Source: a virus
IMG/VR virus record: IMGVR_UViG_3300032116_000761
Coordinates: 1-33,880 of that record
Strand: one strand, 5' to 3'
DNA length: 33,880 nt
In this document: positions 9,145-33,154 of the stretch, piece after piece
Numbering within the stretch: the stretch's first letter is position 1
Layout: each line of letters opens with the position of its first letter
Program-made: the position numbers and the translations under genes
Notes under the pieces: model-generated
Told to the model about the DNA's origin: nothing
Databases searched by the model: none
The model's input: the letters and a program-made list of their open reading frames with translations, nothing else

Positions 9145-10056
9145 TTAGCCTCGCTTTACGTGATTAGGAATCAGTTGACGATACTGAATATACCCTTTGA
9201 TATTACCTGACCAGTAGTTACCGTCGAAGTCCATGTGCGTCCATCCTTGCGTCCTAGCAGAAGGGATTGGATATTCTTTAGGATTTCGTACAAGCAATTG
9301 GTGCTCTACAGGGCTAGCATGTACAGGCTCAGACTCGATTAGTCGATCAAAGATTACTTTAGCTTTTTCTACGCTGAAGTCTAGCTTACGGTAAGATACT
9401 TGGGCACATAGACTAGCAGAAACTTTCTTAGCATCTTCAGTGCTAAGTTCTTCATTACCGATGCAGTAATGCAGTTTCAGATTCATACCTGTACCACGAA
9501 CAAGATCGAGGTAAGGCAGGTGCCATTCACCATCGTACAGATTCATAGCTTTAGCTTGATTGTACGCTTTGTGCATAACCTTAGCAAGCTGTCGGATTTC
9601 AGGTTGAGCATCCTTGTGATCACGCAACCACCAGAAGTTATTCCACTCGGTAGCGGTAACGACAACCTTCATCCACACGTAGGGCTCTAGGATTCTGTTA
9701 ACGATTTGTTTGTGTGCTTGGTAATGCGACATGCGTTCAGCAACAATAGAAGCCTGTTCTGCTGAATTAATCCAATCACCCTTAACCATTGCAAGTTCAT
9801 TTCCTTGTAGCTCTTCATTAGCCTGCATCCCAGGTTGATTCTTACCCCAATGCACCGGCATCGCAGGATCAGAGCGAACCATTTCGATTGTCTTAGCAAC
9901 AGGAATAGCCCTCGAACTAGCAGCATTGCGACTGAACATCCGGTGAGTCATGAACTCGCTATGGATGAACCGAGGATACTCTAGTTCGAAGGTGGTTGCA
10001 ACGTCTCCTGTGAAAACGTTCTTGGTTTTGAGTAGAACTTTAGCTGTGATTTGCAT
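9145..10056 (-). CDS. thyX: flavin-dependent thymidylate synthase
   Basis: 303 residues. The ThyX motif appears as THRMFSRNAASSR (residues 37-49), a variant of RHRxxSxxxxSxR. ThyX makes dTMP from dUMP using FAD, NADPH and methylene-tetrahydrofolate, supplying dTTP for phage replication; it pairs functionally with the dCMP deaminase at 26353-26778. I start at ATG 10056, preceded by AAGGATTACACTA; a longer in-frame extension overlaps the phosphoesterase gene and is not homologous-looking. It overlaps that upstream gene by 17 nt. Confidence 0.9.
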   Translation of the reverse strand: MQITAKVLLKTKNVFTGDVATTFELEYPRFIHSEFMTHRMFSRNAASSRAIPVAKTIEMVRSDPAMPVHWGKNQPGMQANEELQGNELAMVKGDWINSAEQASIVAERMSHYQAHKQIVNRILEPYVWMKVVVTATEWNNFWWLRDHKDAQPEIRQLAKVMHKAYNQAKAMNLYDGEWHLPYLDLVRGTGMNLKLHYCIGNEELSTEDAKKVSASLCAQVSYRKLDFSVEKAKVIFDRLIESEPVHASPVEHQLLVRNPKEYPIPSARTQGWTHMDFDGNYWSGNIKGYIQYRQLIPNHVKRG

Positions 10057-10636: not shown

Positions 10637-11087
10637 GTGCATTCCTTTTTAAATGTTTGTATGTTTGAAATTCTTCCCATGTCATCATCTGACGCAGCAT
10701 CGAGTGTACATCACAACGCAGAGGCTTGTCAAGCGTCACACCTGACTCGTGCAGAAGTCGGCATACGTCAGCAGCGTGACCAAACATATCATACTCGGTT
10801 CGACTGATGACGAAGACGAAGTTGCCCACAACACCATCAATGTCAGTTTTGAACGACACAAACTCTGTACCGTCATCCATCTTCGAACCGTTGAATTCCC
10901 ACCCAAGGTCTTGAGTAACCTCGAATTCATCCTTCAGTCCAAAGTCAGGATAGGCAACGATCATGTCTACATCATTGTTTACACATTGCATGATGTAGCT
11001 GCTACCTACAGGTCGGCATGGAGCATTATGAAAATGCTTAACAATTAGCTGACGCATTACGCTTACGATCACGGTGTATTTATCCAT
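10503..11087 (-). CDS. nucleotidyltransferase-like protein
   Basis: 194 residues in the open frame. GSSYIMQCVNNDVDMIV (residues 28-44) fits the GS...DxD signature of the nucleotidyltransferase fold, with Asp39 and Asp41 as metal ligands. The substrate is unknown. ATG 11087 follows GGAGAATCACT. The last 45 codons overlap the phosphoesterase gene in another frame. A T TTA AAA heptamer at 10647-10653, in the frame needed for -1 slippage, would give a product ending at 10633 in an ATGA overlap instead. Its genes on either side belong to an RNA-repair-like cluster. Confidence 0.6.
   Translation of the reverse strand: MDKYTVIVSVMRQLIVKHFHNAPCRPVGSSYIMQCVNNDVDMIVAYPDFGLKDEFEVTQDLGWEFNGSKMDDGTEFVSFKTDIDGVVGNFVFVISRTEYDMFGHAADVCRLLHESGVTLDKPLRCDVHSMLRQMMTWEEFQTYKHLKRNAHEMVHKRPALLASKYCTIHESGTGYFARFSRYVVGKLTQLFRST
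10703..10732 (-). promoter_or_regulatory. weak candidate internal promoter
   Basis: TTGACA (10727-10732), an 18-nt spacer and TACACT (10703-10708) on the minus strand, inside the nucleotidyltransferase-like gene and upstream of the phosphoesterase. Confidence 0.35.
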
Positions 11088-11931
11088 AGTGATTCTCCAA
11101 AAATAGACGACGTTCTTGTTCGGGTAGTTCACACCAATCTGACCACAGATAATGATCTTGAATCAAATATGGTGCATTTTTCCACATTTTTGGTAGTCGA
11201 TCAATCTTAAAATACGGAGTAGCACGCATCAGCATTTTCTTACCAATGTAATACGGACTCTTCAGCTTACATGGACGATTGTACAGAGGATCACCCTGTA
11301 GCTGATAGACCATGAAACCTTCACCGTGATCACGCTCAGCAAGTTGAATTGCTTCACCGAGGGTAATTCCAATCACAGTATTGGAAGTCGAATAAGCAAG
11401 CCAATTTCCGTTAGAAATGCGAGAACCAAGATAGTGAGCACCATCTTGTTCCTCAACAATGTGTGGATCAAACTTACTGTCGCAGATTTCAAATACCAGT
11501 GTGCAATCAATGTTGTCTTCGTTTTCAAGAGCAGGATGACCAGTCAGCATATTCTGCGCATGCTTGACGTATTCACTATCGAAACTACCAGTAGTCGTAA
11601 TCAACCAGTCACCATCCACCAAGGTTACACATGCCATATAACCATTAAACTTTTTGTCGATACGGACTTCGGTGTTCAATGGAACATCTTTCCACCAATC
11701 ATTCTCAAGATAATTGAACGACTTACGGGGAGCATGTACCACACGCTCACCAGTCGAAAGACGGTACACATGACCACGACACTCCATGAGTTCAGGTCGC
11801 TTGAACCACATGTAGTCGAACATAGCCTTGCGTGAATACTTAAACATTACCAGATCGTCACCATAAAGCTTCTGAATAGCAAGCTTATCTGCGACGAGTT
11901 GCTGCATCTGCTTGAGGGACGGGTAGTTCAT
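11080..11931 (-). CDS. RNA ligase, T4 Rnl1-like
   Basis: 283 residues. Nucleotidyltransferase motifs are in order: KFNG with candidate AMP-accepting Lys94 (94-97), LVFEI (145-149), EGFMVY (204-209) and KLKSPYY (222-228). The upstream RGHVYRL and FNYLENDWW segments are where T4 RNA ligase 1 has RG-x-x-F and FFN elements. Rnl1-type enzymes join 5'-phosphate and 3'-OH RNA ends, classically resealing cleaved tRNA. The kinase gene at 12068 lies one small gene upstream. Motif I has Asn in place of the usual Asp. The start overlaps the small membrane-protein gene (TAATG). Confidence 0.8.
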   Translation of the reverse strand: MNYPSLKQMQQLVADKLAIQKLYGDDLVMFKYSRKAMFDYMWFKRPELMECRGHVYRLSTGERVVHAPRKSFNYLENDWWKDVPLNTEVRIDKKFNGYMACVTLVDGDWLITTTGSFDSEYVKHAQNMLTGHPALENEDNIDCTLVFEICDSKFDPHIVEEQDGAHYLGSRISNGNWLAYSTSNTVIGITLGEAIQLAERDHGEGFMVYQLQGDPLYNRPCKLKSPYYIGKKMLMRATPYFKIDRLPKMWKNAPYLIQDHYLWSDWCELPEQERRLFLENHYG

Positions 11932-12068
11932 TAGTAGTAGACTCCGAGGTTAGCTAAGAAGAAACCGATCATTAATCGAATGCCAGGATCGAGGTATGAT
12001 ACAGTGAAAAGAACTCCTGTCAATGCCCCAAAGACACCGATCAGGAGTGTAAAGATGAACTTTTTCAT
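11931..12068 (-). CDS. small membrane protein
   Basis: 45 residues with a hydrophobic N-terminal segment (FIFTLLIGVFGALTGVLFTV, residues 4-23) and a second moderately hydrophobic stretch. ATG 12068 overlaps the kinase stop (TGATG), and its TAA overlaps the ligase ATG, so it is translated between the two. Its role is unknown. Confidence 0.7.
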   Translation of the reverse strand: MKKFIFTLLIGVFGALTGVLFTVSYLDPGIRLMIGFFLANLGVYY

Positions 12069-12490
12069 CAGAGACTGTGTTCGAACCTATCACGCATCTT
12101 GGTGACAGTTTCTTCAGGAACACCGTGAGTGGACTTATTACCGTGGATGTTGTTCATCGTAATGACAAAGATATTGTAGTTTGCTCTTGATGCCATCGTC
12201 AAGTATTCATCGTATTCCCACTCACGGGTGAAAGTGTTGGACACAATAACATTATTCCTGTCATCAATTGCACGTTGGACTTTCTGACGACACCAAGCAT
12301 GAGCATCTGCAATACGTCGAGGTTCAAAAACACCATCAAACTTTTCGACAAAGTATTGATCAGCTTCGGCAATGACAATGGGTTCAACTGTCATGTGTGA
12401 AATCAGTTCAGCAAACGTACTCTTACCGGAGCCGGGAAGACCCCGGATGATAAGCATGAACGGTTTATCAATCATGTCTTTGATGTTCAT
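12068..12490 (-). CDS. P-loop kinase, N4BP2/polynucleotide-kinase-like
   Basis: 140 residues. The Walker A motif is GLPGSGKST (17-25). It is followed by EADQYFVEKFDGVFEP, an AHAWC segment and VIVSNTFTREWEYDEY, an arrangement resembling the kinase domain of N4BP2 and phage 5'-polynucleotide kinases. The likely reaction is phosphorylation of 5'-OH RNA ends, preparing them for ligase. No phosphatase domain is attached, unlike T4 Pnkp. It is the first gene of the contiguous kinase, membrane protein, ligase, nucleotidyltransferase, phosphoesterase series. Confidence 0.75.
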   Translation of the reverse strand: MNIKDMIDKPFMLIIRGLPGSGKSTFAELISHMTVEPIVIAEADQYFVEKFDGVFEPRRIADAHAWCRQKVQRAIDDRNNVIVSNTFTREWEYDEYLTMASRANYNIFVITMNNIHGNKSTHGVPEETVTKMRDRFEHSL

Positions 12491-13523: not shown

Positions 13524-13552
13524 AGTTTATACCGTCAGCAGATACTTGTCAA
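13524..13552 (-). promoter_or_regulatory. sigma70-like promoter at the 3' end of nadV
   Basis: TTGACA (13547-13552), a 17-nt spacer and TAAACT (13524-13529) on the minus strand; the -10 box includes the nadV stop codon. It drives the structured leader and 13010-13402. Confidence 0.7.
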
Positions 13553-15050
13553 CAGCAGTGTTGACCTTAGCTCGAATCTCATCGATGGTAAACATCTTGG
13601 TGATTCGACCGTTGAGGAACACCGTCTGCAAAGCACCAGTCTGTTCTTGTTCAACCGTGCAGTCATTGTGCAGGACAAAGTTACCGTTGTCAAGCTCTTG
13701 AACCTTCAGCAGACCGCGAGCACTACGCTTCAGACCATCGTCAGTCTTGGGGTCTTTGAACAGTGCGCGACGTTGACCATTCACCACAGCAGAAGTAGCC
13801 TTCATTGCCATGCCGAAAGTGTCACGAGTCAGGTACTGATACGTGAAGCTACCGATACCGAACACCACGTTAGCGGAAGCGAATCCCTTCAGGTGCAAAC
13901 GCTGCATGATTTCTTCAGCACGTTCGAGCGTGATGCTATCACCGTAGATCAGACCCACACGTTGATTCAGAAGCTTGTGACCAGTTTCAGTCTCAGTACC
14001 ACTGAAGATTTCCCACAGACATTCCACAGCACCCTTCGACTCAGGACTACCAGCAGGAGCCTTCGGATCACCACAGAGAATGTCAGCAGGATTACCACTG
14101 TCAGGACGGAACACAACCTTGGCAAGACCAAGTGCATTCGGTTGACGATTCAGGATAACATCCTTGAGTTCAGTAGCAGTTTCAGTAACAACCTTGAAGA
14201 AGTCCCAGGTGTCAGAAACAACCGACACAACACCACTCGGATAAACATCTTGAATCAGGTGACGAATGGTTTCCTTCTCATCTTCCATGCCACCAGCACA
14301 CATCACACTGTGTTCAGTTGCAGGAACCGAACCACCGACGAAGGTTGCAAGACCGTTGTAGAACTTTTCGATAGCTTCGATTGCAGGGATCGTGTCAGTA
14401 CCAAGGAAGCTGAATAGGTGGCCCATGCCAGATTGAGCAGCATCGGAGATACCCGACATACCACGCATCGAGAAGTCGTGACCTTGCCACAGAACGAAAT
14501 CCTTCGGAGAACCAGTTCGCTTAGCCCAACGCTCAAGCAGTTTACGGTATTCGAACGCGACAGTTGCGCAAGTAATAATCTTCCAGATTTCAGCACTGAG
14601 AGCAGTTTCGATGAAGTTCGTCAGCCAGTAGAACTCAGGCAGAGTATTGTGAACAGTCAACATCGGGACACCCATCGGAACGAGCGAGCCTTCAGGAAGT
14701 GCCTTGATTTCCAGAGGCAGGTAACCCAGGTCGTGCAGCGCAGCAATGTGCGAGCTATCAACCGAGCCAGGACCGAGAGCACCATCATTACGACGATTGA
14801 ACTCAGCAACAACATCAGCCTTTGGCTTATCAAAGAAAAGCTTTTGGAATTGCTCTTGCAGGAATTGCATCAGGAATACTTGCAAACCAACAAATACAAC
14901 CTTGTCAATGTATCGACCGTTTGCAAGCGGAGCACGCTTGTTCGAACGAGCAGTCAGGTTGGAATAGATTTCGCTGGTACCAAGCGGATACTGGAAAACG
15001 TGACCGATTTTGTAGAAGTCAGCAGCGAGAATTGGGTTAGGTTGAAACAT
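13527..15050 (-). CDS. nadV: nicotinamide phosphoribosyltransferase-like enzyme (NadV/NAMPT; candidate NARP1 Namat)
   Basis: 507 residues, full NAMPT length. Recognisable blocks are GHDFSMRGMSG (about 195-205), a RPDSGNPADILCGDP phosphoribosyl-binding region (about 315), YGDSITLERAEE and FGIGSFTYQYLTRDTFGMAM. The classical reaction makes NMN from nicotinamide and PRPP. When paired with a Prs-like gene in phages, homologues (Namat) join nicotinamide to ADP-ribose pyrophosphate and so rebuild NAD+ after host NADase defence. The prs gene lies just upstream here, separated by an HNH gene. ATG 15050 follows AAAGGAAAAGTAA. Confidence 0.92.
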   Translation of the reverse strand: MFQPNPILAADFYKIGHVFQYPLGTSEIYSNLTARSNKRAPLANGRYIDKVVFVGLQVFLMQFLQEQFQKLFFDKPKADVVAEFNRRNDGALGPGSVDSSHIAALHDLGYLPLEIKALPEGSLVPMGVPMLTVHNTLPEFYWLTNFIETALSAEIWKIITCATVAFEYRKLLERWAKRTGSPKDFVLWQGHDFSMRGMSGISDAAQSGMGHLFSFLGTDTIPAIEAIEKFYNGLATFVGGSVPATEHSVMCAGGMEDEKETIRHLIQDVYPSGVVSVVSDTWDFFKVVTETATELKDVILNRQPNALGLAKVVFRPDSGNPADILCGDPKAPAGSPESKGAVECLWEIFSGTETETGHKLLNQRVGLIYGDSITLERAEEIMQRLHLKGFASANVVFGIGSFTYQYLTRDTFGMAMKATSAVVNGQRRALFKDPKTDDGLKRSARGLLKVQELDNGNFVLHNDCTVEQEQTGALQTVFLNGRITKMFTIDEIRAKVNTAVDKYLLTV

Positions 15051-15080: not shown

Positions 15081-15109
15081 ACTGTATCACTGAGGTTGAG
15101 TGTTGTCAA
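15081..15109 (-). promoter_or_regulatory. sigma70-like promoter for nadV
   Basis: TTGACA (15104-15109), a 17-nt spacer and TACAGT (15081-15086) on the minus strand, overlapping the stop region of the HNH gene. It gives nadV a start independent of prs. Confidence 0.7.
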
Positions 15110-15668
15110 GTGGTTGAGACTTGAAGTAATGTTCCTTGTGATATTTTCGTTTACCTTGCAGACAAGCATTGACAAGTCTGAAGTCGAACCCATGCAGTTT
15201 CATTTCTTTATTGCCACACAATGTGAGCTTGTGGTTTCCAGACTTATCAAATACAAGCACTTTGAATTTGGTTCTAGGTGCTTTTTCTGCATACGAAATT
15301 GTTTTTAGTCCTGATTCTATTGCATGAATTTGATTTTGAGAGTTGTCACACCACTCAAGATTACTGACACTGTTGTTTTGTTTGTTACCGTCTTTATGGT
15401 TAACTTGAGGTTTGTTTTCTGGATTAGGTATGAACACAATAGCTACTTCACGATGCATTCTGATCGTGATTTTTTTGTTAGAATGAGACAATCTTGCTCG
15501 CACATAACCATTTCTGTCTATTTGCGTTTTAAGCTCTTTTCCGGTTAGAAGAGCAATATTACCGTTTGTTTTGCTTACTAGTCTATTTACAGAACGAATC
15601 TTACCGCAAGAAGAAACTTCATATCCTGGGACAGTGCTATTTTGCCAGAAGAGGATGGTCTGCAACAT
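15087..15668 (-). CDS. NUMOD4-HNH homing endonuclease
   Basis: 193 residues. A NUMOD4-like start (FWQNSTVPGYEVSSCGKIRS, 7-26) is followed by an HNH core with MHREVAIVFIPNP, VNHKDGNKQNN and NLEWCDNSQNQ, and a C-terminal DNA-binding-like tail. Such free-standing enzymes cut intronless alleles and spread themselves. The gene begins inside the last 32 nt of prs and ends just before nadV, so it was probably inserted between them. The ribosome site is weak. Confidence 0.85.
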   Translation of the reverse strand: MLQTILFWQNSTVPGYEVSSCGKIRSVNRLVSKTNGNIALLTGKELKTQIDRNGYVRARLSHSNKKITIRMHREVAIVFIPNPENKPQVNHKDGNKQNNSVSNLEWCDNSQNQIHAIESGLKTISYAEKAPRTKFKVLVFDKSGNHKLTLCGNKEMKLHGFDFRLVNACLQGKRKYHKEHYFKSQPLDNTQPQ

Positions 15669-16461
15669 CTGGATTCATCAGATTATAGGTGTAAACAACA
15701 TCGAACATACCGTTTAGAATGTCCAATCCTTTTGAAAAGATACCATGTGTGACCATCACTCCAAGTTTAGTGATACGAGGCTGTGTAGCTTTCAGCATCT
15801 GTGCTGCACTAATAAAAGTCGCCATACCGTCTCCAATATCGTCCACAATCAGGACTTTACCTGAAAGAGTATCAGGTGTCAAGTCTTCATGGTGAACCTT
15901 ACCCTCTTTACGAGTCTTAGTCAGCGTGACATACGGTACAAAGGTTTCACGCGAAAGTACGTTGATCTTTCTGGTAGAACCTTCATCGGGTCCGACGAGC
16001 CAGTCTGCCTTGAAGTGCTTCTTCACCGTTTCAAATGCAACAGTGTTTTGACCAATGTTTTGGATGTAAGGTTTTTCAGAGCTATTGATATTTGCATAAA
16101 CGTCACTATGAACATCCGTTGTAATCAACCGAACGTAGGATGGAATTGCACGCAAGAAAACAGCAAGTGCAAAAGATTCACCCGGATGACACATTCGGTC
16201 TTGACGAGAATAAGGAAGGTAAGGCATGTCCAGATATACAGGTTCACGATTCTTTCGATTTGCAGTAGCACGAGCGATTGCATCACACAGATTCATGATA
16301 ATGAAAAGCTCTTCATGATCAACCAGACCACGATGTTCAATGGTAGCTGCAAGTGGAACATCGTGAGGATGCGTCAACCACTCAGGATCAAGCTTTACAC
16401 CGATTTCACCACCTGGGAACTTCCAGTGCTTGAAACCATAAGGTTTAGTTGTAATAGTCAT
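15637..16461 (-). CDS. prs: ribose-phosphate pyrophosphokinase-like enzyme (Prs; candidate NARP1 Adps)
   Basis: 274 residues. Motifs include YLPYSRQDRM (81-90), TTDVHSD (114-120) and the ribose-5-phosphate loop VLIVDDIGDGMATF (203-216). Prs makes PRPP from ATP and ribose-5-phosphate; phage homologues next to NadV (Adps) pyrophosphorylate ADP-ribose. The loop reads DDIGDGMAT rather than the bacterial DDxxDTGGT, so substrate use may differ. The C-terminus (VADHPLLAK) is where the HNH gene overlaps, and may have been altered by the insertion. Confidence 0.88.
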   Translation of the reverse strand: MTITTKPYGFKHWKFPGGEIGVKLDPEWLTHPHDVPLAATIEHRGLVDHEELFIIMNLCDAIARATANRKNREPVYLDMPYLPYSRQDRMCHPGESFALAVFLRAIPSYVRLITTDVHSDVYANINSSEKPYIQNIGQNTVAFETVKKHFKADWLVGPDEGSTRKINVLSRETFVPYVTLTKTRKEGKVHHEDLTPDTLSGKVLIVDDIGDGMATFISAAQMLKATQPRITKLGVMVTHGIFSKGLDILNGMFDVVYTYNLMNPDVADHPLLAK

Positions 16462-21628: not shown

Positions 21629-22690
21629 CTATTCGTACTTCTCCAGCCAGTCGTTGCTGATTACCTTGAAGCTAAAACGATCCTTAGAATTCAGCTTGAA
21701 CACCAGACCTTCTCGTGGTGTTTTATTAAACACTGAACAATCCTTGGCGTCTTCCAGTAGCACATCACGATTAGCACTTTGTAGTGTACCCATCACGATA
21801 ACAGGAACATGCTTTAGACCTAGTGCCTCCACAATGGATTGTCGAATACCTGGAGGACAATATGTTGCAGTACCGGGGTCATACATGTCGTACACAAAGA
21901 AATCCGGTTCAGTAAATTCATACTGATTGCCTTGAATACCAGGACCGCAGATTTCACCTTGAATAGCCATTGAACCACCAAGAGCAATCAGTTCACGAAG
22001 CTTAGCTTTAACATCATACTTGATAGCCATTTGCCAGTAGACATTCGACTCATCACGTTCGAGGTCAACGTTACGAGAGCATACATGAAACAGACCTTCA
22101 GAGTCAAGCAGCATGGTACAGCTTGAACCGTCCATCTTTTCAGTTACTTCGAAATGATGACCAACGTACTGCTCAAGAACGGAAGTCTTGATGTTTTGCA
22201 CACGCTCTTGATCAGTCTTCGGTACACACGAAGGGAAGTTACCACGCATGATACCTTGCATGTTCGAAGGAATAGGCTTTTCCCACTTCTGAACATTCAA
22301 CTTTTCAGTGAAATCATCACCTTCGTTATAGTTACCTGTAACAAAAAAACCATTAACAGTAAAACCAATAAAGTCCATTCCACATGTGTCAATAATGGGC
22401 AGCAGTAGACCTTGCGAGATTTGACCACGCAGACGAACCGTGCGCAGACGCTGACCCTTGACACCATTGAACTCAGCAGGTTCCTTGCCAGGACGAGTCA
22501 GGAACGGAGCAAGATCGTGAGGAATCCACGAGTCGATTTCGAAGTATACAGCGAGTTGACCGACTTGGAATTCACCCTTCTTCACGACAACACGCCAGCC
22601 ACCAACACGGGCAACTTCGATCTTGTCTGCCCCTTCAATGGGGGCAATTTCTTCAATCTTACGGATGGTAGCTAGAGCACGTTCTGTCAT
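21629..22690 (-). CDS. RNA ligase, DraRnl/Rnl5 type
   Basis: 353 residues. The N-terminal part (ADKIEVARVGGWRVVVKKGE, 21-40, and following) resembles the OB-fold of Deinococcus DraRnl. The ligase part has motif I EKMDGSSC with Lys185, IQGEICGPGIQGN near 245 and EGLVFKLNSK near 335. DraRnl-type enzymes seal RNA 3'-OH ends at nicks in duplexes. This is a second, distinct RNA ligase in the window. ATG 22690 follows AAAGGAAACATA. Its stop lies beside the ribosome site of the primase-helicase, suggesting coupled translation. Confidence 0.85.
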   Translation of the reverse strand: MTERALATIRKIEEIAPIEGADKIEVARVGGWRVVVKKGEFQVGQLAVYFEIDSWIPHDLAPFLTRPGKEPAEFNGVKGQRLRTVRLRGQISQGLLLPIIDTCGMDFIGFTVNGFFVTGNYNEGDDFTEKLNVQKWEKPIPSNMQGIMRGNFPSCVPKTDQERVQNIKTSVLEQYVGHHFEVTEKMDGSSCTMLLDSEGLFHVCSRNVDLERDESNVYWQMAIKYDVKAKLRELIALGGSMAIQGEICGPGIQGNQYEFTEPDFFVYDMYDPGTATYCPPGIRQSIVEALGLKHVPVIVMGTLQSANRDVLLEDAKDCSVFNKTPREGLVFKLNSKDRFSFKVISNDWLEKYE

Positions 22691-24850: not shown

Positions 24851-24925
24851 GAAACATTTAAAGTATAGAATAATATCAGTGTGTTAAGTATAGTAATAAC
24901 AGTATTTAGCATTACAGGAGTATTT

Positions 24926-25420
24926 ATGAAACTAAGACAAGTTAAAATATGTGAAGACATAGCAATTGTTCCTTTAACAAAAGGTTATGAAACAGTTATT
25001 GGTATTGTTAGCATTCCATTGGTTGAAAAGTACAACTGGTATTTCAATAGTGGATACGCTGCTACGGATGTAAGGAAATCTGACGGTAGTTGGCAAAAAA
25101 TATTGATGCACAGATTGATCATAAATGCTCCTGACGGATACGATACCGATCATATTAACTGCAACAAGCTGGACAATCGAATCTCAAATCTCAGGATTGC
25201 AACACGTATGCAAAATAACTGTAATCAGAAATTAGGAAGTAACAATACTAGCGGATACAAAGGTGTATATTTTGATAAACGTAAATCAAAATGGAAATCA
25301 TGTATATCAATCAATGGTGTTATTCATCACCTCGGCTACTTTGCTGACAAGGAATCTGCTCACTCTGCGTATTGTGCTGCCGCAATGAATGTGTATGGCG
25401 AGTTTGCTAGATTTGCTTGA
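24926..25420 (+). CDS. HNH-AP2 homing endonuclease
   Basis: 164 residues. The HNH core is MHRLIINAPDGYDTDHINCN and NRISNLRIATRMQNNCN (about 68-107), followed by an AP2-type DNA-binding domain (GVYFDKRKSKWKS...HHLGYFADKESAHSAY, about 120-155). Codon use is more A/T-rich than in neighbouring genes, which suggests separate mobility. ATG 24926 follows AGGAGTATTT; I do not use the further upstream in-frame TTG. It lies downstream of the structured RNA. Confidence 0.85.
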   Translation: MKLRQVKICEDIAIVPLTKGYETVIGIVSIPLVEKYNWYFNSGYAATDVRKSDGSWQKILMHRLIINAPDGYDTDHINCNKLDNRISNLRIATRMQNNCNQKLGSNNTSGYKGVYFDKRKSKWKSCISINGVIHHLGYFADKESAHSAYCAAAMNVYGEFARFA

Positions 25421-27923: not shown

Positions 27924-28013
27924 GCTGGATTCGCCTAGTTGGTCGATGGCACCTGCCTTGTAAGCAGGTATGAGTAATCTACGTCGTGGGTTCGAATCCT
28001 ACATCCAGCACCA
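27924..28013 (+). tRNA. tRNA-Thr (UGU) with extended variable region
   Basis: Acceptor GCTGGAT/ATCCAGC, D-arm GCC/GGC, anticodon arm CCTGC-CTTGTAA-GCAGG, T-arm GTGGG-TTCGAAT-CCTAC and encoded CCA. The variable region is 17 nt (TATGAGTAATCTACGTC), much longer than in ordinary class I tRNA-Thr. Confidence 0.88.
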
Positions 28014-28028
28014 TGAAATTTAAAGAAT

Positions 28029-28490
28029 ATGAAAAGAAAAATAGTATCAGACAGTGAATTAATAGAAGCTGTCCGCACTTCTTTTAGTGTATATGAAGTA
28101 TTGCGAAAAATAGGAAAAAAAGAAGCCGGTGGGAATCACGCTCATTATTCTAGAAAGATTAAGCAACTGAATGCTGATACTTCACACTTTTTACGTTGTG
28201 CTCATAACAAAGGTAAGTCTTCACCTAAAAAACGAAAACCAGATTCAATTCTTACATTAAGAACATCAGGTGGTCGTACTAAAGCAAGATTACTAGTTAG
28301 AGCAATGTTGGAGTCTAATGTTAAACATGAATGCAGTAAATGCGGTCAAAAACCAGAGTGGTTAGGCTCACCATTGACTCTAGATGTAGATCATGTGAAC
28401 AAAAATTGGCTAGATGACAGATTAGAGAATTTGCGATTTCTATGTCCAAATTGTCATAGTCAATTTAGCAGAAATCTATTGGGTAATTGA
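28029..28490 (+). CDS. HNH endonuclease in the tRNA array
   Basis: 153 residues. The N-terminal domain (VRTSFSVYEVLRKIGKK) is shared with the product of 31467-31913. The C-terminal zinc-stabilised HNH core has ECSKCGQKPEW, LDVDHVNKNWLDDRLENLRF and LCPNCHSQ. Codon use is A/T-rich. The stop codon lies within the first 10 nt of tRNA-Leu (28481-28558), so gene and tRNA overlap. The ribosome site is weak. Likely a homing enzyme targeting tRNA-array DNA. Confidence 0.85.
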   Translation: MKRKIVSDSELIEAVRTSFSVYEVLRKIGKKEAGGNHAHYSRKIKQLNADTSHFLRCAHNKGKSSPKKRKPDSILTLRTSGGRTKARLLVRAMLESNVKHECSKCGQKPEWLGSPLTLDVDHVNKNWLDDRLENLRFLCPNCHSQFSRNLLGN

Positions 28491-28558
28491 CGGGAATTGG
28501 TATACCTTTCTGCCTTAGAAGCAGAAGCCTCTCAGTTCGAGTCTGAGATTACCCACCA
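28481..28558 (+). tRNA. tRNA-Leu (UAG) with short variable loop
   Basis: Acceptor GGGTAAT/ATTACCC, Leu-like D-loop (GGAATTGGTA), anticodon arm TCTGC-CTTAGAA-GCAGA, T-arm CTCAG-TTCGAGT-CTGAG, discriminator A and CCA. The variable loop is only 5 nt, whereas bacterial tRNA-Leu normally has a long variable arm. Confidence 0.8.
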
Positions 28559-28567
28559 AAGTTTTAT

Positions 28568-28688
28568 GGCGACTTAGTTTAGCGGCAAAACGTTAAGAAA
28601 GTCATTCCTGTGTAGGAATCAAACAGCACACAAATTCAATTACCTTGTCACGGTAAAGTCACGGGTTCGAATCCCGTAGTCGCCGCCA
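28568..28688 (+). tRNA. tRNA-Asp (GUC) interrupted by a 47-nt insertion
   Basis: Acceptor GGCGACT/AGTCGCC, D-arm GTTT/AAAC, anticodon arm TTACC-TTGTCAC-GGTAA, T-arm CGGG-TTCGAAT-CCCG, G73 and CCA. Between the D-arm and the anticodon arm (28593-28639) lies an extra 47 nt containing hairpin ATTCC/GGAAT. Without it the molecule is a normal tRNA-Asp. Confidence 0.8.
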
Positions 28689-28923: not shown

Positions 28924-30315
28924 ATGACTACTTTCCGTAACGCCGTTCTTTCTGAAGGCAACTTTACTCAAACTGAGAACGGCATGGCTGCTCTCAAGAG
29001 TTCGCTGAATGCTAACGTTGACCTGTTCTTCTCTGCGGCTGCAAGTCGTGGTAAGGATATCAGCGCAAAGTTCGCTGCTGCTCTGTCGGAAAACCGCGAG
29101 CTTGCCCTGCGTCTTGCTCTGTGGCTGCGTGATGCCCGCGAAGGTGCTGGTGAACGTGAACAATTCCGTAGTCTTCTGAAGTTCCTTGAGAAGCACGACG
29201 AGTCCGCTCTTCTGCACGTTATTCCGGTCGTACCGCATGTCGGTCGTTGGGATGACCTGTTGATCTTCACGAATCCTACTTGGAAGGCTGCTGCTTTCTC
29301 GGTGATCGCTGAAGGTCTTGCTGAAGGCAATGGTCTGTGCGCAAAGTGGATGCCTCGCAAGGGTGCAACTGCTGCTGAACTGCGTGACTTCCTGGGTGTA
29401 AGCCCTAAGCAGTACCGCAAGGGTCTGGTGTCGCTCTCGAACACTGTCGAGCAATTGATGTGTGCAAAGCGCTGGAATGATATCGAATTCGGTAAAATTC
29501 CTTCACTGGCTGCTAAGAACTACCAAAAGGCTTTTAATCGTAACTGTGCTGCTCAGTACCAAGCGTACAAGCTGGCTCTGACGAACGGTAACGCGAAGAT
29601 CAATGCTTCGGCAATCTTCCCGTATGACGTTCTGAAGGGTAGCGACCGTGTGGTTGCTCAAGCTCAGTGGAATGCTCTGCCTAACTTCCTGACGGAAGAT
29701 GCAAAGATTCTTCCAATGATTGACGTATCTGGTAGCATGTGCAGTCCGCAGGTTTCACCGGGTCTTGCTCCGATTGACGTTGCAGTGTCACTTGGTCTGT
29801 ATATCGCAACCAAGCAGACTGGTTCTTTTGGTGGTGTTTACCTGACGTTCACTGACCGTCCTACGCTGACGACAGTTGATCAGTCTAAGAACATTGTCGA
29901 TCTTAACCGTTGGGTTGTCAGTCACGATGTTGGCTACAGCACGAACATCGAACGTGCGTTTGGTGAAATCCTGCGTGTTGCAAAGACGAACGGTGTACCG
30001 CAAGCAGAAATGCCGAAGTACCTGTTGGTGTTCAGCGACATGCAATTCAATGGAAGCACTTTCGGTTACCGTGAGACTGCGTTCGACAATGCTAAGCGTC
30101 AGTTTGAAGCTGCTGGTTACGAACTACCAAAGCTTGTGTGGTGGAACATTGCAGACCGTGGTAACAACACGCCTGTGAAGTACGATGCACAAGGTAACGC
30201 ACTGGTGTCGGGTTTCAGCCCTTCGCTTGTGAAGTCGATCCTGGCAGCTAAGACTTTCACTCCTGAAGGTGTGATGCTTGAGACGCTGTTGCAAGAACGC
30301 TACGATCTTGCTTGA
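28924..30315 (+). CDS. Ro60/TROVE-like protein with vWA domain (DUF2828-type)
   Basis: 463 residues. The N-terminal two-thirds is helical, with LRLALWLRDAREGAGEREQF and ALLHVIPVVPHVGRWDDLLI as in TROVE/DUF2828 proteins. The C-terminal vWA domain has the metal-site motif MIDVSGSMCS near 264-273. Ro proteins are rings that bind misfolded RNAs and Y RNAs; bacterial Rsr genes are often adjacent to Y-RNA genes. Here the gene sits among tRNA genes behind two tRNA-like elements. ATG 28924 follows AAGGAG, and a terminator follows at 30393-30416. Confidence 0.82.
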   Translation: MTTFRNAVLSEGNFTQTENGMAALKSSLNANVDLFFSAAASRGKDISAKFAAALSENRELALRLALWLRDAREGAGEREQFRSLLKFLEKHDESALLHVIPVVPHVGRWDDLLIFTNPTWKAAAFSVIAEGLAEGNGLCAKWMPRKGATAAELRDFLGVSPKQYRKGLVSLSNTVEQLMCAKRWNDIEFGKIPSLAAKNYQKAFNRNCAAQYQAYKLALTNGNAKINASAIFPYDVLKGSDRVVAQAQWNALPNFLTEDAKILPMIDVSGSMCSPQVSPGLAPIDVAVSLGLYIATKQTGSFGGVYLTFTDRPTLTTVDQSKNIVDLNRWVVSHDVGYSTNIERAFGEILRVAKTNGVPQAEMPKYLLVFSDMQFNGSTFGYRETAFDNAKRQFEAAGYELPKLVWWNIADRGNNTPVKYDAQGNALVSGFSPSLVKSILAAKTFTPEGVMLETLLQERYDLA

Positions 30316-30419: not shown

Positions 30420-30509
30420 TGCGGGGTAGAGCGTAGCTTGGTAGCGTGTCGGGCTCATAACCCGAAGGTAGCAATATCCCCGTGGGTTCGAGTCCCACCC
30501 CCGCAACCA
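30420..30509 (+). tRNA. tRNA-Met (CAU), initiator-like, with extended variable region
   Basis: Acceptor TGCGGGG/CCCCGCA, anticodon arm with CGGG-CTCATAA-CCCG (three G-C pairs beside the loop, as in initiators), T-arm GTGGG-TTCGAGT-CCCAC and CCA. The first pair is T-A instead of the bacterial initiator mismatch. The variable region is about 16 nt. Confidence 0.8.
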
Positions 30510-31369: not shown

Positions 31370-31453
31370 GCCTTTGTGACCTATGTAAACTGGTACAGCA
31401 AACTGATTCAAAATCAGTGGTTATTGCTGGTTCGAATCCAGCCAAAGGCACCA
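31370..31453 (+). tRNA. tRNA-Leu (CAA) with short variable loop and enlarged D region
   Basis: Acceptor GCCTTTG/CAAAGGC, anticodon arm ACTGA-TTCAAAA-TCAGT, T-arm GCTGG-TTCGAAT-CCAGC, A73 and CCA. The variable loop is 7 nt rather than a long arm, and the D region is about 25 nt. Confidence 0.78.
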
Positions 31454-31466
31454 AATACTTATTCTC

Positions 31467-31913
31467 ATGACAAAAGTAAAATACTCCAAAGAACTATTAG
31501 AATCAATCGTAAAGCAATGTGAGTCTTTGTCTCAAGTATTGAGAATACTAGGACTGAAAGCAAGAGGTAGCAATTACAAGACACTTCAAAAATACATAGA
31601 ACTTTATGATGTAGACATTGCTCATCTAAAAGGAAAATCAATCCACGCTGGTAAAGAGTATACTCCTTTTGAAAACCTTAGAGGTAAAACACAAATACGA
31701 GAAAGACTAATCAAACTACTTGGTTATTCTTGCAAGCACTGTGGTATAGATAACTGGAACAATAAACCAATAACTCTTGAAGTTGAACACGTAGACGGTA
31801 ACCCAAGAAATAATTCAAGAGAAAATCTAACACTCTTATGTCCAAATTGTCATAGTCAAACATCTACTTTCAGAAATAGAAAGAGATTGCCGAGCAAAGA
31901 GGGTATGGCGTAA
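31467..31913 (+). CDS. HNH endonuclease in the tRNA array
   Basis: 148 residues, same family as the 28029-28490 product: N-terminal VKQCESLSQVLRILGLKARG, then CKHCGIDNWNN, LEVEHVDGNPRNNSRENLTL and LCPNCHSQ. Codons are A/T-rich. The last 15 nt, including the stop, overlap the 5' end of tRNA-Leu (31899-31981), repeating the arrangement at 28481. The ribosome site is weak. Confidence 0.85.
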   Translation: MTKVKYSKELLESIVKQCESLSQVLRILGLKARGSNYKTLQKYIELYDVDIAHLKGKSIHAGKEYTPFENLRGKTQIRERLIKLLGYSCKHCGIDNWNNKPITLEVEHVDGNPRNNSRENLTLLCPNCHSQTSTFRNRKRLPSKEGMA

Positions 31914-33065: not shown

Positions 33066-33154
33066 ACTAGAATCACTCAGAGGCCGAGAGTACCGTGTTG
33101 ATAACGCGGCTAGCGAAAGCTACATCGTTGGTTCGAATCCAACTTCTAGTACCA
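33066..33154 (+). tRNA. tRNA-Ile (GAU) with a hairpin variable arm
   Basis: Acceptor ACTAGAA/TTCTAGT, anticodon arm CCGTG-TTGATAA-CGCGG, T-arm GTTGG-TTCGAAT-CCAAC, A73 and CCA. The variable region includes TAGC-GAAA-GCTA, a GNRA-capped hairpin not usual in tRNA-Ile. Confidence 0.85.

Follow-up and report, generated by a model that had tools for sequence, protein, structure and literature searches.

The 47-nucleotide insert that interrupts a tRNA-Asp gene in the 33,880-nucleotide stretch of viral DNA analyzed here (hereafter the window) is a copy of an RNA element, not listed before, that occurs in many phage tRNAs and in some bacterial ones. Its copies form a conserved family in which a covarying hairpin is followed by ACAGCAA. 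The tRNA that holds the element is normal in other respects, and in phages and bacteria alike the element shows genetic linkage to genes for Ro60-fold proteins. We regard as evenly balanced the proposal that the insert is a Ro60-associated RNA element, that the interrupted tRNA is a tRNA-shaped, Y-RNA-like partner of the Ro60-like protein, and that the insert is probably retained.

The interrupted gene occupies positions 28568-28688 (plus strand) and corresponds to tRNA-Asp(GUC), with the 47 extra nucleotides lying between the D-arm and the anticodon loop. A sequence-only reading of this region had described the tRNA as complete and well paired, and our results agree. The Rfam tRNA model (RF00005) matches 28568-28685 at 49 bits (E 9.9e-8), the acceptor (7/7), D (4/4), anticodon (5/5) and T (5/5) stems are fully paired, and GCCA is encoded at the 3′ end. 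ARAGORN missed the gene without its intron mode, and in that mode reported a tRNA-Asp(gtc) carrying a 47-nt insertion. On the basis of the Rfam model, ARAGORN and pairing, the 5′ part of the tRNA (28568-28592) comprises the acceptor 5′ strand, the D-arm and position 26, and the 3′ part (28640-28688) comprises the anticodon arm (TTACC-TTGTCAC-GGTAA), the T-arm, the acceptor 3′ strand and GCCA. The insert boundaries proposed earlier, 28593-28639, are right to within 3 nt; both edges carry the repeat TTA (GTTA...ATTA), so that 28596-28642 fits equally well, and the consensus of relatives favors edges between GT and TAAG and between CAAT and TACC. The 5′ strand of the anticodon stem, TTACC, is contiguous in the 3′ part and forms five of five pairs, an arrangement that is compatible with either fate of the insert, retention or removal.

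The ATTCC/GGAAT hairpin reported within the insert is real and has 6 bp (ATTCCT-GTGT-AGGAAT). Folding energy is uninformative here, because the insert is no more stable than shuffled sequence of the same composition (z -0.46). The significance of the hairpin instead derives from conservation, since a 34-nt core model built without the window matches positions 28599-28632, where the hairpin is followed by CAA and then by ACAGCAC. Two other candidate features were rejected: a TGTGT/ACACA pseudoknot between the loop and downstream sequence, which is not conserved in relatives, and an exact 17-nt match to the hairpin in a coding gene (L032), which is a coincidence.

Several other genes of the window were observed in passing. 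The genes for tRNA-Thr(UGU) (27924-28013), tRNA-Met(CAU) (30420-30509) and tRNA-Ile(GAU) (33066-33154) have 13-14 extra nucleotides in the variable region; these form small hairpins (TAGC-GAAA-GCTA in tRNA-Ile, GGTA-GCAA-TATCC in tRNA-Met) that resemble class II arms on class I tRNAs. Conversely, tRNA-Leu(UAG) (28481-28558) and tRNA-Leu(CAA) (31379-31453) lack the long variable arm that is usual in bacteria; in the Otagovirus phage PPSC2, too, the leucine tRNAs are short (78 and 77 nt). Four HNH homing-type endonuclease genes lie within the 34 kb (15087-15668, 24881-25420, 28029-28490 and 31467-31913), two of which abut tRNA genes. An NAD+ rebuilding pair is formed by a nicotinamide phosphoribosyltransferase (13527-15050) and a ribose-phosphate pyrophosphokinase (15637-16461).

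The family emerged when IMG/VR was scanned with two patterns for tRNAs whose D-arm and T-arm are 55-85 nt apart, a spacing that is normally about 26 nt. A first, narrow pattern gave only chance matches outside tRNAs and hinted at a singleton, and it was the broader D-arm/T-arm spacing patterns that revealed relatives. These scans returned 88 and at least 120 matches, 129 of which passed a cloverleaf filter for well-paired acceptor and T stems, and a single motif recurred in about 33 distinct IMG/VR tRNAs among the filtered matches. The motif consists of a hairpin of variable sequence, 1-4 nt, the consensus A-C-[A/U/C]-G-C-[A/G]-A and, in most cases, an A/U-rich segment of about 7-13 nt. The hairpin followed by ACAGCAA is now evident in about 70 interrupted phage tRNAs, with insert lengths of about 41-60 nt and isotypes that include Asp, Asn, Lys, Arg, Pro, Ile, Thr, Gly, His and Phe. 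All six hairpin pairs covary (95.5% paired; 0/500 shuffles), and the C, G and C of the ACAGCAA-type motif are invariant in the family alignment (A4). Rfam contains no such family. In practical terms, tRNA finders give the interrupted tRNAs wrong annotations, also in cultured phages: GenBank lists that of Aeh1 as tRNA-Val (AY266303, 96384-96505), that of PX29 as a joined tRNA-Leu (GU396103, 83777-83893) and that of S13 as tRNA-Ser/OTHER (KC954775, 132703-132945).

Two further RNAs were noticed among these collections. A second set of phage tRNAs has inserts of 50-60 nt close to the anticodon stem, marked towards the 3′ end by a GGTTATC/AGTTACTT motif (L216, L233, L250, L202, L311, L171, L176, L278, L299 and L153), and none of these 10 records encodes DUF7788. 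Aeromonas phages also have, next to their interrupted tRNAs, a conserved RNA of about 116 nt that combines the ends and D-arm of a tRNA with two T-arm-like hairpins (9177-9292 in Aeh1, L119; 1143-1259 in L163; 4733-4849 in L332).

Membership of the window insert in the family was assessed with two models, both built without the window and both giving only rough E-values. The model of the full tRNA plus insert (R1) scores the window tRNA-Asp at 76.1 bits; tRNAs with other inserts reach 75.7-80 bits, so R1 alone is not decisive, and the core-only model (R2) was therefore built. The best R2 match in the whole window is the one at 28599-28632, exactly at the insert (20 bits, E 0.01), and R2 found no match in the tRNA inserts of 50 control loci. 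Because the R2 score is weak for the window, membership also rests on the motif alignment, in which the insert reads ATTCCT-GTGT-AGGAAT CAA ACAGCAC with the invariant C, G and C in place, and on the neighboring gene.

That gene (28924-30315, plus strand) begins 236 bases downstream of the end of the tRNA-Asp and encodes a DUF2828 and DUF7788 protein, with HEAT and vWA regions and a MIDAS motif, that we propose as the partner of the insert. An AlphaFold model of the product (pLDDT 80.1, pTM 0.73) yields seven Foldseek matches in the PDB with E <= 0.001, all of them Ro60 (best E 3.4e-7), and the top match is the Ro60 of Thermus phage phiLo (PDB 9l5y). The protein is thus predicted to adopt the Ro60 fold of helical repeats plus a vWA domain, with a MIDAS site, as in the phiLo and vertebrate (1yvr, 1yvp; human 9nen) Ro60 structures and in Deinococcus Rsr (2NVO), which the annotators of phage OC had noted. 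However, it is only about 11-17% identical to Ro60 in the structural alignments, a Pfam scan matches DUF7788 and DUF2828 and not the TROVE profile, and phmmer against the PDB gives nothing significant. DUF7788 is not in PADLOC, and the literature collection searched returned no paper on DUF2828/DUF7788 function, on small phage tRNA introns or on these tRNAs. A TROVE protein has been noted in a small subset of jumbo phages (PMC7824862).

Among phages, DUF7788 occurs in 23 of 31 records that carry the element and in 0 of 50 tRNA-bearing controls, which were picked from tRNAs with other inserts and are not random. The association holds without the window (Fisher 8e-14) and is significant in both size classes. 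By our own tally, 15 of the 23 records have an interrupted tRNA no more than about 3 kb from the DUF7788 gene. No DUF7788 was detectable in the other eight carriers; many of the searched records are fragments, and some of these eight are long (208 and 148 kb, for example). The Ro60-like gene can lie more than 100 kb from the interrupted tRNAs in huge phages. A search that started from the protein found interrupted tRNAs in 8 of 13 named or deposited phage records, two of which (phiAS5 and the 735-kb LR756501) had been reached through the tRNA. The eight are KVP40, S13, Erwinia phage SNUABM_47, BUCT-ZZ01, APT65, LAh_6, LR756501 and, more weakly, phiAS5; in S13 and BUCT-ZZ01 the interrupted tRNA adjoins the Ro60-like gene. 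No clear interrupted tRNA was seen in the other five (DLP_6, phiN3, Astolliot, Munch and OC). Aeh1 and PX29 also carry both interrupted tRNAs and DUF7788. The Ro60-like gene is KVP40.0300 in KVP40 and Aeh1ORF154c in Aeh1.

The same linkage is found in bacterial chromosomes. A scan of GTDB genomes with the Ro60-like protein gave 498 relatives, and 20 of the best 80 of these loci have strong R1 matches to interrupted tRNAs upstream of the gene in the same orientation, mostly no more than a few hundred bases away and often several in a row (L373, L403, L386). When 12 whole bacterial genomes were searched, strong long matches were present in nine, all of the listed ones beside the Ro60-like gene, and the other listed tRNAs of those genomes are of normal length. 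The surroundings of the L373 locus are ordinary chromosome, with genes for dehydroquinate synthase, pseudouridine synthase and ABC transporters. Upstream of some bacterial Ro60-like genes, the core is also found in non-tRNA or degenerate RNAs (three copies in L366; also L410 and L394).

This arrangement recalls the YrlA Y RNAs (RF02553) that accompany the Ro60 orthologue Rsr, which, like the window RNA, have a tRNA-like body beside a Ro60-family gene. The window RNA shares with YrlA the adjacent gene and, as judged by its RF00005 and R1 scores, the tRNA-like body. In the YrlA model structure, paired ends lie at the anticodon-arm position of this body. YrlA is circularly permuted, with the T-arm preceding the D-arm and the ends at the anticodon position, whereas the window tRNA is unpermuted, retains a real anticodon arm, and carries the hairpin and ACAGCAA element, which differs from that of YrlA. 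No match to YrlA above the Rfam gathering threshold was found in the window, and the bacterial L373 locus scored 31.6, 26.4 and 25.2 bits where 69 are needed. The two best of these matches run from the T-arm of one tRNA into the D-arm of the tRNA that follows, and the third also extends into the next insert. Furthermore, the Ro-binding stem of paired 5′ and 3′ ends is not seen in the window RNA, whose ends form a normal acceptor stem and whose conserved element is internal. Because both of these YrlA tests fail, we do not file the element as a Y RNA.

We nevertheless favor the possibility that the interrupted tRNA and the protein would work as Ro60 and Y RNA do in their particle. The product of the neighboring Ro60-like gene would bind the element, and the interrupted tRNA would act as its RNA partner, the counterpart of bacterial Y RNAs. 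Rather than being removed to yield a tRNA for decoding, the insert may stay in the functional RNA and dock the tRNA body and anticodon arm onto the protein, for instance to present tRNA-cutting enzymes of the host with a decoy or to sense them; we are less certain of this part. This proposal is based on the linkage to Ro60-like genes, the core copies in non-tRNA RNAs, the lack of a consistent nuclease or ligase in carriers, the redundancy of interrupted tRNAs with intact isoacceptors, and the position of the paired ends in YrlA. With regard to redundancy, an intact tRNA with the same anticodon is present for 23 of 32 interrupted tRNAs (72%) compared to 52 of 332 normal tRNAs, although the 72% may partly reflect the completeness of these phage tRNA sets. 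Interrupted tRNAs thus mostly duplicate an intact isoacceptor and do not complete the tRNA set. Against a partner-RNA role, the phage anticodon arm is kept perfect, which would be needless for a pure scaffold, and the exons fit ordinary tRNAs without gaps. The eight carriers without DUF7788, the distant genes in huge phages and the five DUF7788 phages that lack a clear interrupted tRNA also count against it.

The strongest competing explanation, which we rate as less probable but a genuine contender, is that the insert is a tRNA intron of a new, very small class. It would be cut out and the halves joined, with the Ro60-like protein as a splicing factor or chaperone and with phage or host enzymes (RNA ligase, kinase, RtcB) providing the nuclease and ligase. 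The position of the insert speaks for this explanation. Although the sequence-only reading placed the insert between the D-arm and anticodon arm, as is true of the window, most relatives have it within the 5′ strand of the anticodon stem. In an alignment of 25 members (A1), the insert separates the two outer from the two inner pairs of the anticodon stem; these helices are 90% and 82% paired, with changes on both sides in all of them (0/500 shuffles); therefore, the insert usually splits the 5′ strand at 28/29 or 29/30. A perfect 5-bp anticodon stem results from skipping the insert in 50 of 72 members, compared to 13.4 +/- 2.7 after 5′ parts are swapped, and a contiguous perfect stem exists in only 10 of 72. 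Among the 50, U33 is kept in 43 and a purine at position 37 in 46. Joined exons align with ordinary tRNAs without gaps and match across the junction at up to 93-95% (e.g. L251 versus L218, 93% over 58 nt), and CCA is encoded as often in interrupted tRNAs (16/85) as in normal ones (13/65). The wide range of isotypes also fits an intron, as does the recurrence of the same core in several tRNAs of a single genome. Conversely, the split stem could equally form around a retained insert, inserts of 41-60 nt are far below the size of known self-splicing introns, and neither the non-tRNA core copies in bacteria nor the redundancy of interrupted tRNAs is expected of an intron.

Known tRNA introns provide little precedent for such an element. 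Group I introns likewise interrupt tRNA genes in phages and bacteria, but these are ribozymes of more than 200 nt located in the anticodon loop. The window insert, at 47 nt, has no room for a ribozyme core of about 200 nt and no Rfam match, which upholds the earlier conclusion that it is not a group I intron. The bulge-helix-bulge introns of archaeal tRNAs are small, spliced by proteins and can lie outside the anticodon loop (PMC4090602). However, they need a tRNA splicing endonuclease (PF01974), which is encoded by 0 of 31 carriers of the element in a search whose control was positive in four archaea, and they are not known to contain a conserved internal core.

Other enzymes also failed as consistent partners. 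The two RNA ligases and the polynucleotide kinase to which the sequence-only reading drew attention are indeed encoded in the window: an Rnl1-type RNA ligase (11080-11931, minus strand; PF09511, 36.8 bits), a second RNA ligase (21629-22690, minus strand; PF09414, 94.9 bits) and a polynucleotide-kinase-like P-loop ATPase (12068-12490, minus strand; AAA_33, 49.3 bits; phrog_505, E 6.9e-8). However, they do not generally accompany the insert, as RNA ligase families (Rnl1, Rnl2-type) occur in at most 11 of 31 carrier records and RtcB in 1 of 31, making the ligases possible but inconsistent accessories. In keeping with splicing, Erwinia phage SNUABM_47 and Salmonella phage Munch (L322, L326) have an RNA ligase gene immediately upstream of the gene for the Ro60-like protein. 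A ligase was also observed about 2 kb from the Ro60-like gene in two 371-kb IMG/VR phages (G021/G023). A splicing enzyme could still be supplied by the host. More specifically, small introns might be removed in a Ro60-dependent manner by neither a group I ribozyme nor an archaeal endonuclease, possibly from spare tRNAs held inactive until host nucleases cut others, a version that we consider somewhat unlikely.

Far less probable is that the insert is retained as an extra arm on an ordinary translating tRNA and that the Ro60 link is incidental. The contiguous anticodon stem of the window tRNA (5/5) makes an arm at position 26/27 sterically imaginable, but most relatives are split at 28/29 or 29/30, the region of the anticodon stem where the small ribosomal subunit grips P-site tRNA, and the linkage to Ro60 is stronger than an incidental one would be. 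Equally improbable is a decaying tRNA with a random insertion, or an assembly error. The sequence-only reading had listed a pseudogene among its options, and there is a single copy of this exact tRNA: a near-identical contig (L033) stops short of the region, and no close relative of the window tRNA-Asp was found in the collections searched. Yet the insert contains the family core, all stems are intact, and the family is present in isolated phages (Aeh1, PX29, KVP40, S13) and bacterial genomes. Least probable of all is a mobile element that lands in tRNA genes and is moved by a neighboring HNH endonuclease, for although near-identical cores recur in several tRNAs of one genome (e.g. L316, L373) and an HNH gene adjoins the tRNA pair upstream in the window (28029-28490, plus strand; phrog_10822, E 1.1e-51), nothing ties this gene to the insert or the Ro60-like system, HNH genes are not consistent neighbors in the annotated phage loci examined, the insert is too short to encode a protein, and the Ro60 linkage would be left unexplained.

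A role against host RNases would have some precedent in phage biology. The defense system Septu cuts tRNA-Tyr, and phage tRNAs have been described as a countermeasure to tRNA-cutting defenses (PMC13096335). Those are ordinary tRNAs that have neither an insert nor a Ro60 partner, and what they would share with the interrupted tRNAs is this possible role.

Knowledge of Ro60 and Y RNAs goes back decades, and their role in bacteria is still largely open. The present findings add many natural Ro60-family genes, not listed before as a set, that are linked to RNAs recognizable as tRNAs, spanning cultured phages (KVP40, Aeh1, PX29, S13 and BUCT-ZZ01) and bacterial chromosomes. The proximity of the element to Ro60-like genes points to an uncharacterized tRNA-based RNA-protein system, whose readings are testable in the cultured carriers KVP40, Aeh1, PX29 and S13. 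If the insert is removed, an unknown tRNA splicing pathway would exist in bacteria and phages. If it is retained, tRNAs would have been recruited as Y-RNA-like partners, possibly to serve as bait for anticodon nucleases.
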